Source: Oscillospiraceae bacterium
GTDB lineage: Bacteria; Bacillota; Clostridia; Oscillospirales; Oscillospiraceae
NCBI GenBank assembly: GCA_022792555.1
Contig: JAAWBF010000140.1
Span: 1-47,171, forward strand
Reading direction: 5' to 3'
Length of the DNA stretch: 47,171 nt
How positions within the stretch are numbered: the first letter of the stretch is position 1; every line of letters begins with the position of its first letter. Of this stretch, positions 1 to 3,653 are shown one piece after another. Below the pieces are notes generated by a model, which was not told the DNA's origin, did no database searches, and saw nothing but the letters and a program-made list of their open reading frames with translations. The position numbers and the translations under genes are program-made.

Positions 1-127
1 ACGGATCTCGCAGTCGAGTGCTTTAGCGACTTCATCTTGGGAAACACCAGCTTTAATTCGTGCACACTGGAGAGGGCTTTCAGGATGCGTGCCGCCTACT
101 TTTCTTTTGGATTCCTTTTTTTTTCAT
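1..127 (-). pseudogene. Partial XRE-type helix-turn-helix protein, frame broken at an A9 run
   Basis: On the minus strand a strong AGGAGG site (136-141) precedes an ATG at 127. The reading frame that looks like protein gives ESPLQCARIKAGVSQDEVAK, then ALDCEIR up to the window edge, which is the first half of an XRE/Cro-type DNA-binding domain. This frame is not the frame of the ATG. The run of nine A (forward T 116-124) right after the start shifts it by one base; with eight A the start would join the HTH frame directly. As written, the ATG frame stops after 15 codons. This could be a real frameshift, phase variation by slippage, transcriptional slippage, or a sequencing error in a homopolymer. 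The gene leaves the window at its 3' end. Confidence 0.6.
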
Positions 128-354
128 GGCTTGTTCCTCCTGTAAAAAATCAGGGGATGTAACCCCAAATTAAATTTTACAGGAAATGTAGGAGAAATCA
201 AACGATATGAATGTCGGGTATAAAGAAAAGTAGAAATTTGTCATTTTGCCGAAACATTGAGGAGCAGTTGTATGAACATCAGCAACGGAATTTATACCGA
301 GAACAGCGACATTTAAAGCGGTGTTGTGTTAAACTTTCACCTAGCATGGGAAGG
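128..354. other. Intergenic stretch, nothing firm recognised
   Basis: AT-rich DNA upstream of the HTH gene. A 14-codon ORF (271-315, MNISNGIYTENSDI) follows a GGAG-like site, but it is too short to assign and may be the start of a deleted gene. No clear promoter, RNA or repeat was found. Confidence 0.3.
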
Positions 355-519
355 TTATTTCAGCCTGTGTAGCTTGGCAAATCGCTCCAGTACTACGGCC
401 ACTTGCTCACGGATGACAGTCCCACTTGGCCGGGTGCTATCAAACAACTTTTCAGATATGACATTATCTCAGGCTTCCTTTGCCCATTGGGCGCTCTCTA
501 TCTTTTTTCTATCGCGCAT
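355..519 (-). pseudogene. SLH-like C-terminal remnant with in-frame stop
   Basis: Read on the minus strand, this gives SAQWAKEA, a TGA stop (469-471), then DNVISEKLFDSTRPSGTVIR and EQVAVVLERFAKLHRLK before TAA (355-357). The pattern WAKEA...REQVAVVLERFAKL is that of one S-layer-homology-like repeat, as found at the C-termini of cell-wall hydrolases and phage-type amidases in Clostridia. Only one repeat remains, it carries an internal stop, and no enzyme domain precedes it, so it is a decayed fragment. The family call is from motif recognition only. Confidence 0.5.
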
Positions 520-527
520 CCAGCCGA

Positions 528-619
528 GGGAGTGTCCCAGGCCCAGGGTTTTTATCTGTTTCTCTCCCGCTATAGGCGGGGGAGAAACACGCAAATAAAT
601 CTTTGCGGCGGACACTCCC
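528..619 (-). repeat. Dispersed intergenic repeat, family C copy 1
   Basis: The ends form an inverted repeat, GGGAGTGTCC at 528-537 and GGACACTCCC at 610-619. The interior holds a stem of CTCCCGC/GCGGGGGAG type and the conserved block AAGATTTATTTG (minus strand). A clearly related sequence lies on the plus strand at 15216-15325: the same AAGATTTATTTG, the C-rich hairpin, GATAAAAAC and a CGGCTGGA tail in the same order. No coding potential was seen. Confidence 0.6.
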
Positions 620-634
620 CCATCCGATTTCCTG

Positions 635-664
635 TTTACGTCACCCCTATGTCCGTGGTACAAT
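635..664 (+). promoter_or_regulatory. Candidate sigma-A promoter for the dnaD-dnaC unit
   Basis: TTTACG (635-640), an 18-base spacer and TACAAT (659-664). It lies about 65 bases before the start codon at 730 and is the best sigma-A match in this intergenic region. Confidence 0.5.
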
Positions 665-729
665 AGGGAAACAGAGTTTAGATACAGGGCAGGCGGCGAA
701 GCCGCGCTGTTCCAGAAGGAGGTCGCCCA

Positions 730-1701
730 ATGCCCGATGCGCTGATGCTGCCTGGAGAAATTCTATCTATGTCCGGGGCTGCGGCCAGCCGGCTGATTGC
801 GAAGGGCAGCGGAGATGGGGCGTTGCTCTATTTATGGCTGCTGCGCCAGGCGGGGGAATACGACCCCCAGGCGGCGGGCCGGGGGTTAAAGTGGGACTTG
901 GCCCGAACACAGGCGGCCTTTGAGGAGCTGGTGGATCTAAAGCTGGCGGACAGCAGGCAGCAGGTTTCTATGTCCCTGCCCGTGCCGGACGAGCCGCCTG
1001 AGTATACCGCTGCCGATCTGACCAAGGAGATGGAGAACACCGCCTCCCCCTTCCCCAGCCTGGTGACAGAGGTTCAGCGGCGGCTGGGAAAGCTTCTGTC
1101 TACTACCGATTTGAAAACCCTCTATATGCTCTACGATTATTTGGCCCTGCCTGCCGAGGTAATTCTGCTCCTGGTGAACTGGTGTGTGGAGGAGATGGAA
1201 CGCAAGTATGGTGAGGGTCATAAGCCTCGAATGCCCCAGATTCGGAAGGAAGCCTGCCGGTGGCAGGAGCAGGGGCTTAACACCCCGGAGGCGGTGGAGC
1301 GCTTTCTGCGGAAACAGGCAGTCCTGCACACCAGAGAGGCCCAAATTCTCCCTCTCCTGAATATCCGGGACCGCCAGCCCATTGACCCGGAGCGGCGGTA
1401 CATCGCCAAATGGGTAGAATGGGGCTTTGAGGATGAGGCGATCCGTCTGGCCTATGAGCGGACCATCCTGAAAAAGCAGTCCATGAACTGGGCCTATATG
1501 AACTCTATTCTGAGAAACTGGAACGAGAAGGGGCTGCGGACCGTCGCCGCCATTGAGGCCAGAGACGGCAAGCCCGCCCGGATGCCGGCAGGCCCAGTGG
1601 CTCCTGTCCCCATGCCCACCCCGCCTGGGGAGGCGGATCGCCGGGCCAGGGAGGATATGGAGCGGCTGAGAGCCTTTATGAAGCAGGGCGGAGGAGGATA
1701 G
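730..1701 (+). CDS. DnaD-domain replication initiation protein
   Basis: A 323-residue protein. The N-terminal ~95 residues look like the DnaD winged-helix region. They are followed by two DnaD/DnaB2-type helical blocks, around residues 110-190 and 210-285, the second with the family's run of aromatic and basic residues (SMNWAYMNSILRNW). Proteins of this type help load the replicative helicase in Firmicutes, together with a DnaC/DnaI-type ATPase, and that is exactly the next gene. The start at 730 follows AGAAGGAGGT with good spacing. The tail is Pro/Ala-rich and probably flexible. The stop is 3 bases before the next ATG, so the two genes are almost certainly co-transcribed. The family call is confident; whether it acts at oriC or in restart cannot be told from sequence. 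Confidence 0.85.
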   Translation: MPDALMLPGEILSMSGAAASRLIAKGSGDGALLYLWLLRQAGEYDPQAAGRGLKWDLARTQAAFEELVDLKLADSRQQVSMSLPVPDEPPEYTAADLTKEMENTASPFPSLVTEVQRRLGKLLSTTDLKTLYMLYDYLALPAEVILLLVNWCVEEMERKYGEGHKPRMPQIRKEACRWQEQGLNTPEAVERFLRKQAVLHTREAQILPLLNIRDRQPIDPERRYIAKWVEWGFEDEAIRLAYERTILKKQSMNWAYMNSILRNWNEKGLRTVAAIEARDGKPARMPAGPVAPVPMPTPPGEADRRAREDMERLRAFMKQGGGG

Positions 1702-1704
1702 CTG

Positions 1705-2712
1705 ATGTCATACGATGCAAATGTATTCCGCCGGGCGGTCCAGCGGTTGGCGGAGGAGCGCACCCAGCGGGAAGAGCTCCAGCGCCGCCGGCAGGAGGAG
1801 ATCTTTAAAAAAATTCCCCGTGCGGCGGAGATTGACCGGCAGCTGCGCCGGACCATCATAGAGTTGATCCGATCTGCTCTGAGCCGGGGGAGCGACCCGG
1901 TGGCGGCTCTCCAGACCGTCCGGGACAAAAACCTGGGGCTCCAGGCCGAGCAGGCCGAGCTACTGGCCGCCCACGGCTACCCCATCGACGCTCTGAACAG
2001 CCGCCCCGCCTGTCCCAGGTGCGGGGATACCGGTTGGGTGGGAAGCGAGATGTGCCGCTGCCTGGAGGCGCTGTGCGCCCAGGAGCAGATCAAGGAGCTG
2101 TCAAAGCTGCTGGACCTGGGAGGACAGACCTTCGACTTGTTCTCTCTGGACTATTACAGCGATCAGCCCTGGACAGGAGAGACCGTCCCGCCCAGAGAGA
2201 ATATGGAGTTTATCCGGGATGTGTGCTGGAGCTACGCCGAGCGCTTCGGCGTCTTTCCGGTCAAAAACCTCTTTCTGACCGGCAGTCCCGGCCTAGGCAA
2301 GACCTTTTTGTCCGCCTGTATCGCGCGGGTGGTATCAGAGAAGGGACACTCTGTGGTCTACGACACAGCAGTACAGATCTTCAATACCTTTGAGGCCCAG
2401 AAGTTTTCACGGGATGCGGAGGACACCCAGCAGGCCCAAAAGGAGACCCATCAATACCTGCGCTGTGACCTGTTGATTTTGGATGACCTGGGCAGCGAGA
2501 TGACCACTCCCTTTGTCCAGTCAGCCCTCTATACCCTGATCAATACCAGGCTGACTGCCGGACGGCACACCGTCATCTCCTCCAACCTGTCTATGGACGA
2601 GGTGCGCAGACGCTATGCGGGCCAGGTGGCCTCCCGGCTGGAGGGGGAATACCGCCCTCTGTGTTTTTACGGGGAGGATGTGCGTCAGCTGCGCAAGCTG
2701 GCGCCGGTTTGA
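1705..2712 (+). CDS. DnaC/DnaI-like helicase-loader ATPase
   Basis: A 335-residue AAA+ protein. A basic, coiled-coil-prone N-terminus (residues 1-60) leads to a Cys cluster (CPRCGDTGW at 103-111 and CRC at 117-119) that probably binds zinc, as in DnaI/DnaC. The ATPase core has Walker A GSPGLGKT (193-200) and Walker B LLILDD (256-261), followed by the DnaC-family sensor region. Such proteins load the hexameric helicase DnaB, whose gene lies at 10864-12207. It could also be named IstB-like, but no transposase is adjacent and a DnaD partner is, so the replication role is preferred. The start follows GGAGGA, overlapping the end of the upstream gene. A hairpin repeat begins 8 bases after the stop. 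Confidence 0.88.
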   Translation: MSYDANVFRRAVQRLAEERTQREELQRRRQEEIFKKIPRAAEIDRQLRRTIIELIRSALSRGSDPVAALQTVRDKNLGLQAEQAELLAAHGYPIDALNSRPACPRCGDTGWVGSEMCRCLEALCAQEQIKELSKLLDLGGQTFDLFSLDYYSDQPWTGETVPPRENMEFIRDVCWSYAERFGVFPVKNLFLTGSPGLGKTFLSACIARVVSEKGHSVVYDTAVQIFNTFEAQKFSRDAEDTQQAQKETHQYLRCDLLILDDLGSEMTTPFVQSALYTLINTRLTAGRHTVISSNLSMDEVRRRYAGQVASRLEGEYRPLCFYGEDVRQLRKLAPV

Positions 2713-2719
2713 TACTTTT

Positions 2720-2796
2720 TTAGCTGATACTGTCTCCACCCCCTCCGGGGTGGAGACAAGAAAAAGCTCTAGTTCGATTTCTGAGAACTGCTATAG
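2720..2796 (+). repeat. 3'-region hairpin element, family A (after dnaC-like gene)
   Basis: The hairpin GTCTCCACCCC (2732-2742)/GGGGTGGAGAC (2747-2757) is followed by A-rich sequence and the conserved end TTTCTGAGAACTGCTATAG (2778-2796). The left arm (AGCTGATACTGTCTCCACC) matches the mirrored arm of the copy at 12396-12485. It lies directly after the stop at 2712 and may end the upstream transcript. Confidence 0.7.
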
Positions 2797-2816
2797 AAAC
2801 AGGGAGGCTGACACCC

Positions 2817-3653
2817 ATGGCACAGTCACAGATCCGCCCCTATCTCAAGTGGGCGGGCGGAAAGCGGCAGCTCCTGCCGGAGATCCGCACCCGCCTGCCC
2901 AAGGATGTAGACAGGCGGATATATTATGAACCCTTTGTGGGGGCTGGGGCAGTCCTGCTGGATCTGAAGCCGGGCCGGGCGATCATCAATGATTCTAACC
3001 GGCAGCTCATGCTCACCTATCAGGCGGTCCGGGACGATGTGGAGACACTGGTCGCGCTGCTGGCCCAGCATCAGGAGCGGCATAGCCGGGACTACTACTA
3101 CGAGATCCGGGGGATGGACCGCACCGGAGAGTTCTCCCATTGGACGCACACCCAACAGGCCGCCCGGCTGATCTATCTGAATAAAACCTGCTTTAACGGC
3201 CTCTATCGGGTCAATACCCAGGGGCTGTTTAATGTCCCCGTTGGCAGCTACAAGCGCCCCGCCATCTGCGAGCCGGAGGTGTTAAGGGCGGTGAGCCGCT
3301 ACCTGCGGGAAAACCAGGTGGAGCTGTATACCGGGGATTTTGCCGACGCGGTGGAGGGGGCGGGTTCAGACGCCTTTGTTTACTTCGATCCCCCCTATCA
3401 CAGCGCGGACAACACGAATTTTACCGGCTACCAGGCCAACGGCTTTGGGGAGGGGGAACAGCGCCGCCTGCGGGATCTCTTCGATGCACTGACCGCCAGG
3501 GGGGCCAAATGCCTGCTGAGCAATTCGGCTACTGACCTGATTTTGGAGCTCTATCAAAATTATCACTGCGATCGGATTCCCGCCCGGCGGAACATCAACT
3601 CCCGTCCGGATGGCCGGGGGGCCGTTCAGGAGGTGCTCATCCGCAACTGGTGA
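2817..3653 (+). CDS. dam: Dam-family DNA adenine N6-methyltransferase
   Basis: A 278-residue class-alpha MTase. The N-terminal KWAGGKRQLL (11-20) and FVGAGAV (40-46) form the AdoMet-binding motifs X and I. LNKTCFNGLYRVN lies at 121-133 and the catalytic DPPY at 191-194, the order found in the Dam/DpnM group. Members of this group mostly methylate adenine in GATC. The length is normal. The ATG follows GGGAGG with a long spacer. The next gene begins 15 bases after the stop and encodes a nuclease-like protein, so the pair is best read as a type II restriction-modification unit. GATC is common throughout the window, which would need protection if the nuclease cuts there. The specificity is inferred from the family, not shown. 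Confidence 0.88.
   Translation: MAQSQIRPYLKWAGGKRQLLPEIRTRLPKDVDRRIYYEPFVGAGAVLLDLKPGRAIINDSNRQLMLTYQAVRDDVETLVALLAQHQERHSRDYYYEIRGMDRTGEFSHWTHTQQAARLIYLNKTCFNGLYRVNTQGLFNVPVGSYKRPAICEPEVLRAVSRYLRENQVELYTGDFADAVEGAGSDAFVYFDPPYHSADNTNFTGYQANGFGEGEQRRLRDLFDALTARGAKCLLSNSATDLILELYQNYHCDRIPARRNINSRPDGRGAVQEVLIRNW

Follow-up and report, generated by a model that had tools for sequence, protein, structure and literature searches.

A nine-adenine run behind the start codon of a phage-derived XRE regulator gene: a possible case of slippage decoding in an XRE-Spo0A_C operon

Slippage at the RNA level may gate the first gene of a phage-derived operon that encodes a small XRE-type regulator and a Spo0A effector domain (Spo0A_C). 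The ATG of this gene is followed directly by a run of adenines and, in every copy found, the length of the run leaves the start codon out of frame with the helix-turn-helix (HTH) domain behind it. We put RNA slippage first, tentatively, since run length does not vary among the A9 copies while the frame that follows is undamaged; that the gene is live and gated by its run, whether through slippage in RNA or phase variation in DNA, appears more likely than that it is dead.

The signal lies on the minus strand at the very edge of the window, the whole 47,171-base stretch analyzed here, which is one entire contig (C13, GC 58%) of a draft genome of 2.75 Mb in 187 contigs. Re-reading of that strand bore out the order of elements claimed in the first-pass annotation, which did not name the strand: a Shine-Dalgarno (SD) sequence, AGGAGG (136-141), that is kept in three further copies (C95, L016, and L017); 8 nt after it an ATG (125-127), the sole start codon with an SD; and immediately behind this nine A (116-124), then GGAATCC. 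Translation from the ATG (80-127) yields 15 codons, MKKKGIQKKSRRHAS, and stops at a TGA (82-80). The XRE/HTH frame (1-123), one base off the ATG frame, extends for 41 codons until it is cut at the contig edge, and the window thus contains just the first part of the HTH domain, which is complete in C95. In the window copy a TGA in the HTH frame overlaps the ATG, and no ATG, GTG, or TTG stands ahead of the domain; that eight A would join the ATG to this frame, as had also been claimed, was confirmed by reading the frames. No other homopolymer of A or T in the 47,171 bases reaches a length of nine, and ATG followed by A9 occurs at two places in the 2.75 Mb genome, the window and the C95 copy, as against none for a control pattern.

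The second copy in the genome, on contig C95, matches the window at 82% over 446 bases and at 96% over the leader and gene start. Its XRE frame is complete (91 codons, no stop), and the encoded protein, P0001, matches Pfam HTH_3 with an E value of 2e-10 and 40.9 bits against a curated cut-off of 23; P0003, at 35.4 bits, likewise belongs to the XRE (HTH_3) family. A Spo0A effector-domain gene of 109 codons starts 2 nt past the XRE stop, and its product (P0002, 109 aa) matches PF08769 only (E 1e-24), that is, a receiverless Spo0A_C. The same pair, complete in both cases, is found on two IMG/VR phage contigs, L016 and L017, where it lies behind genes for a CHAP endolysin (complete on L017) and an r1t-type holin, with an integrase nearby and a terminator-like hairpin 3' of Spo0A_C. 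Judged by these neighbors, the pair on the IMG/VR contigs is phage cargo, and the phage contigs carry a receiverless Spo0A, while the Spo0A_C of the window copy is off the contig. On L017 a sigma-70 region 4 protein is also encoded upstream of the lysis genes (21-602). The A9 run is present in all four close copies (window, C95, L016, and L017), which represent three distinct sequences over the gene. Assembly or sequencing error is an unlikely source of A9, since the run recurs in two copies of one genome and on two metagenomic phage contigs.

The window retains by similarity a truncated phage endolysin tail (355-447, minus strand), complete in L017, as a relic of phage context, and contig C161 ends within the 3' part of a matching Spo0A_C gene that adjoins ABC transporter genes and is the likely partner of the window XRE copy. 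Drawing on the truncated tail and the C161 end, we infer that the window copy is probably a chromosomal relic, with its middle lost in an assembly gap. Further into the window, at 523-600, lies a dispersed repeat, about 75 bases in length and inverted at its ends, found at about 24 further places in the genome at 73-84% identity; it has no match in Rfam.

Among the matches listed, the nearest new locus is in a Lawsonibacter metagenome-assembled genome (L063; 69% in Spo0A_C), where the two genes lie between chromosomal genes in the same order as in the phage copies. Here the start reads ATG-A7-GAAA behind an SD-like sequence, CAGGGGG, that a strict SD test leaves unscored; reading from the ATG ends after seven codons, and the XRE frame is displaced by one base, in the direction opposite to that of the A9 copies, again with no start codon before the domain. 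The XRE proteins of L063 and the A9 clade are 44% identical, and the shared residues include VGG[ST]HP..PLQ, encoded immediately past the run. The Spo0A_C start of L063 overlaps the XRE stop as ATGA, and this arrangement suggests that the XRE frame does receive ribosomes. A8 is the in-frame length for both the A9 copies and the A7 copy, and since the two observed lengths flank it, a dependence on run length, in DNA or in RNA, is favored over a ribosomal signal. A programmed ribosomal frameshift, or a hidden near-cognate start in the XRE frame, is accordingly very unlikely: the start is followed by A-rich lysine codons and near-cognate codons such as ACG and AAG do stand behind the run, but the A9 copies would need a shift of +1 and L063 one of -1, so that no common frameshift signal fits and the single conserved direction by which frameshift genes are recognized is missing, and where the phage copies have ACG, L063 has TCC.

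A run-shifted start is not a general trait of XRE-Spo0A_C pairs. A scan with nine Spo0A_C proteins (A3) gave 80 genome loci, the best 80 of 101 relatives, so that further clade members may exist, together with five viral loci. An XRE-like frame lies upstream of Spo0A_C in 63 of these 85 loci (the genome part being the best 80 of 101), and pairs of a small XRE protein and a receiverless Spo0A_C are in this sense, among the loci listed, widespread in Oscillospiraceae. With the 22 loci that have no XRE match left out, 57 of the 63 XRE frames have an in-frame start with an SD, as scored by a crude start test among the loci listed. The six exceptions in this set are L063, L143, and L144, which belong to this clade and are run-shifted (the last two being the phage contigs L016 and L017 fetched again); L117 and L141, which are broken by stop codons and have no run; and L094, which has an in-frame start for which an SD was undetected. 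The uninterrupted pairs (57/63, among the loci listed) all belong to distant relatives and none to this clade. One Agathobaculum massiliense genome holds two near-identical loci, L140 and L141 (1660-1740), whose differences cluster at the XRE start, and a single difference from L140 creates the stop codon in the XRE gene of L141.

The first-pass statement that the gene is broken or switched at the A run stands as a description: the frame is off in five of five copies (A9 in four, A7 in one), the complete copies carry no other disabling change, and past the run the frame is conserved. It had also allowed for additional disabling changes past the window edge, of which there are none in the complete copies C95, L016, and L017, while the window copy itself shows 41 codons. 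Comparison of C95 with L063 gives a dN of 0.46 and a dS, near saturation, of 2.17 over the XRE frame and a dN of 0.22 and dS of 2.04 over Spo0A_C; the frame behind the run is thus under purifying selection between lineages. Over just the 13 codons closest to the run, dN and dS do not clearly differ (dN 0.32, dS 0.46, C95 against L063). The C95-L063 ratio includes time before the frame shifts, and only comparison among the A9 copies bears on the A9 state. There, C95 differs from L016/L017 by four synonymous and no replacement changes in 91 codons and from the window by three synonymous and three replacement changes in 41 codons. Seven of the ten changes among A9 copies are therefore synonymous, and all ten are transitions as read from the alignment; with a synonymous share of 34% among possible transitions, P is 0.013 for four of four and 0.021 for seven of ten, which weakly indicates purifying selection on the XRE frame among A9 copies.

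These data bear most directly on the possibility that the gene is dead, with one mutation of the run in the phage lineage, an independent one in L063, decay too slow to show, and Spo0A_C translated from its own SD. Several observations agree with such a history: the XRE frame is served by no start codon, a single A9 ancestor would account for all four A9 copies, half of the changes in the window copy (3/6) are replacements and that copy sits in a chromosomal relic, other XRE-Spo0A_C pairs do decay (L117 and L141), and AAGGTG, found ahead of the phage Spo0A_C start, may serve that start alone. We nevertheless consider it somewhat unlikely that the gene is dead, given three complete A9 copies without a stop or second indel, the four-of-four synonymous changes between C95 and L016/L017, and the need for two losses at the same run with none elsewhere.

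Alternatively, the run could be phase variable, with replication slippage shifting it between A7, A8, and A9 in DNA so that A8 cells are ON and the sampled copies happen to be OFF. The presence of A7 and A9 on either side of the in-frame A8 in two lineages, with frames otherwise intact, would be expected from this, and long runs are rare in the source genome. Against it, all five copies are OFF, although consensus assemblies cannot show minority lengths; the four close copies share one length; and no in-frame A8 copy of the gene was found among the relatives. Phase variation is on this evidence unlikely. The searches behind it returned little else: P0001 had no match in a search of genome contigs and, in 200 family genomes, matched its own genome only; a DNA search of 400 family genomes recovered its own genome plus three short weak matches; a search with A5 gave ten matches in nine other genomes among 400 of the family, none with the VGG[ST]HP segment, and its own genome only among 394 genomes of the order; two single-genome "genus" searches were empty; and phages and plasmids yielded only general HTH matches below 60%. 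At a further locus, L151 (1246-1750, minus strand), an XRE-DUF6514 gene follows an Amidase_3 gene; its SD lies within a short hairpin and precedes an ATG and A10, and the XRE frame is out of step with the ATG by one base. It was not counted as a third run-shifted lineage: 2 nt past the SD there is an in-frame TTG, the protein is 27% identical to P0001, and in this single-contig genome the A10 could be a homopolymer error. A viral scan of L151 returned nothing.

The leader holds several candidate control elements. Four blocks are shared with L063: TTTCGGCAAAATGACAAA (between the window and L063), a CGACA..TG.CG inverted repeat, TCCTGTAAAAT.TAAT, and ATTTTTT[AG]CAGG[AG]GG. The first (237-253, minus strand) carries on the plus strand the Spo0A-box-like TGCCGAA. 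The sequence TGTCGAA, which we take to be the Spo0A box, occurs upstream of Spo0A_C at 27 sites in 25 of the 84 testable loci among those listed, compared with 4.8 (sd 2.0) in shuffles, and control of the operon by a Spo0A-type protein is plausible. The imperfect inverted repeat CGACAT-TC-ATATCG (203-216, minus strand), perfect in L017, is a candidate operator. TCCTGTAAAAT.TAAT can pair with ATTTTTT[AG]CAGG[AG]GG over 12 positions that cover the SD (186-175 with 147-136 by folding; 136-186, minus strand), and possibly it hides the SD in this way or else serves as a -10 element; because this left arm overlaps the possible -10, the stem may be absent from the RNA. A search of the L017 region for the sigma-70 consensus gave no match, as did an Rfam search of window positions 1-3000. 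The stem can also form in L063, where changes are one-sided only, with no double compensatory change. The stem is stable, with z -2.8 in the 86-nt leaders of both the window and L017, -2.3 and -3.7 in a pair of L063 stretches, and -3.8 in a longer L017 stretch, but -1.0 in a longer window stretch.

Returning to slippage in RNA as the preferred explanation, the templated A9 would place the start codon out of frame, so that most ribosomes make the 15-residue peptide and stop. Entry into the XRE frame requires deletion of one A or insertion of two, and a minority of messages or ribosomes would slip (A8 or A11 in the RNA, or sliding of the ribosome) and read that frame. Ribosomes in the XRE frame would also feed translation of Spo0A_C, a coupling suggested by the XRE stop, which abuts the Spo0A_C start in the phage copies and overlaps it in L063, and the operon may regulate itself. 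That RNA-level slippage takes place at a useful rate is something we infer. Nine A is a length at which selection against slippage is visible in many bacteria, and "pseudo pseudogenes" in which 8A has become 9A have been described (Baranov et al., 2005; PMC1088944); the features of such genes, a run of about nine A or T at the gene start and a protein in another frame, are present in the A9 copies, L063 having A7 only. Published work on E. coli tells against this explanation: with its polymerase none of the poly(A) runs examined gave deletion rescue, and runs shorter than eight A did not slip (PMC6260861), a limit that also makes slippage in RNA harder to accept for L063 with its A7; homopolymer deletions are described as rare in E. 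coli RNA (PMC5574713). Ribosomes are likewise reported to slide little at A9, though in vitro a pair of AAA codons behind the start was enough to add extra lysines (PMC4363877).

If the gene is live, errors in copying or reading a single run would determine how much of a regulator is made, and that regulator would be linked, on phages of gut bacteria, to one of the sporulation type. The stronger proposal of a natural noise switch, in which the A run silences the phage regulator and its coupled Spo0A-like protein except in rare bursts from slipped messages, is doubtful; were it true, single cells would change state at random with their DNA unchanged, and the Spo0A-like protein could act on host sporulation genes. 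Genes of this kind escape annotation because they have no usual start codon, and gene finders will miss the XRE frame or call a pseudogene.

Searches of the open-access literature listed no paper on this XRE gene, nor any on a run-gated start in an operon of this type. The following parallels draw on the available passages of each source. Phages have been described that carry a truncated spo0A (PMC10294663), and the second gene here is similarly an effector domain only (PF08769) on phage contigs; those passages mention neither an XRE partner nor a gated start. In a gut bacterium, the bifidobacterial pili switch also has its gene frame set by a homopolymer, but with a G run and a measured mixture of lengths (PMC9187656), whereas the run described here is known from assemblies. 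In tssM of Citrobacter rodentium, an A11 run precedes an early stop and the full product arises through transcriptional slippage; that run lies late in the gene, works by insertion, and was shown by experiment (PMC4256274). An engineered lacI (PMC3694819), also a gene for a DNA-binding regulator, likewise has its start codon followed at once by a run of A, studied as A8, A9, and A10 alleles; it is in frame at A9, so that slippage removes repressor, whereas here slippage would make the regulator. Should the XRE gene be live, it would be a natural counterpart of the engineered lacI allele, and the usefulness of slippage noise in nature would become directly testable. In the genes of PMC1088944, a frame shift also lengthens a non-slippery 8A to a slippery 9A with the frame beyond conserved; they show the same arrangement in non-identical homologs, as do the A9 copies with their three distinct sequences, whereas the more distant L063 differs in run length and shift. 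In the present gene the run adjoins the start codon, which makes the entire protein dependent on it; one relative has A7, and slippage is a proposal. The principle of slippage decoding is already known from the "pseudo pseudogenes", whereas the regulator described here is new, and so is its setting. The run stands in an unusual place, directly behind the start codon of a regulator and beside a phage Spo0A_C gene.
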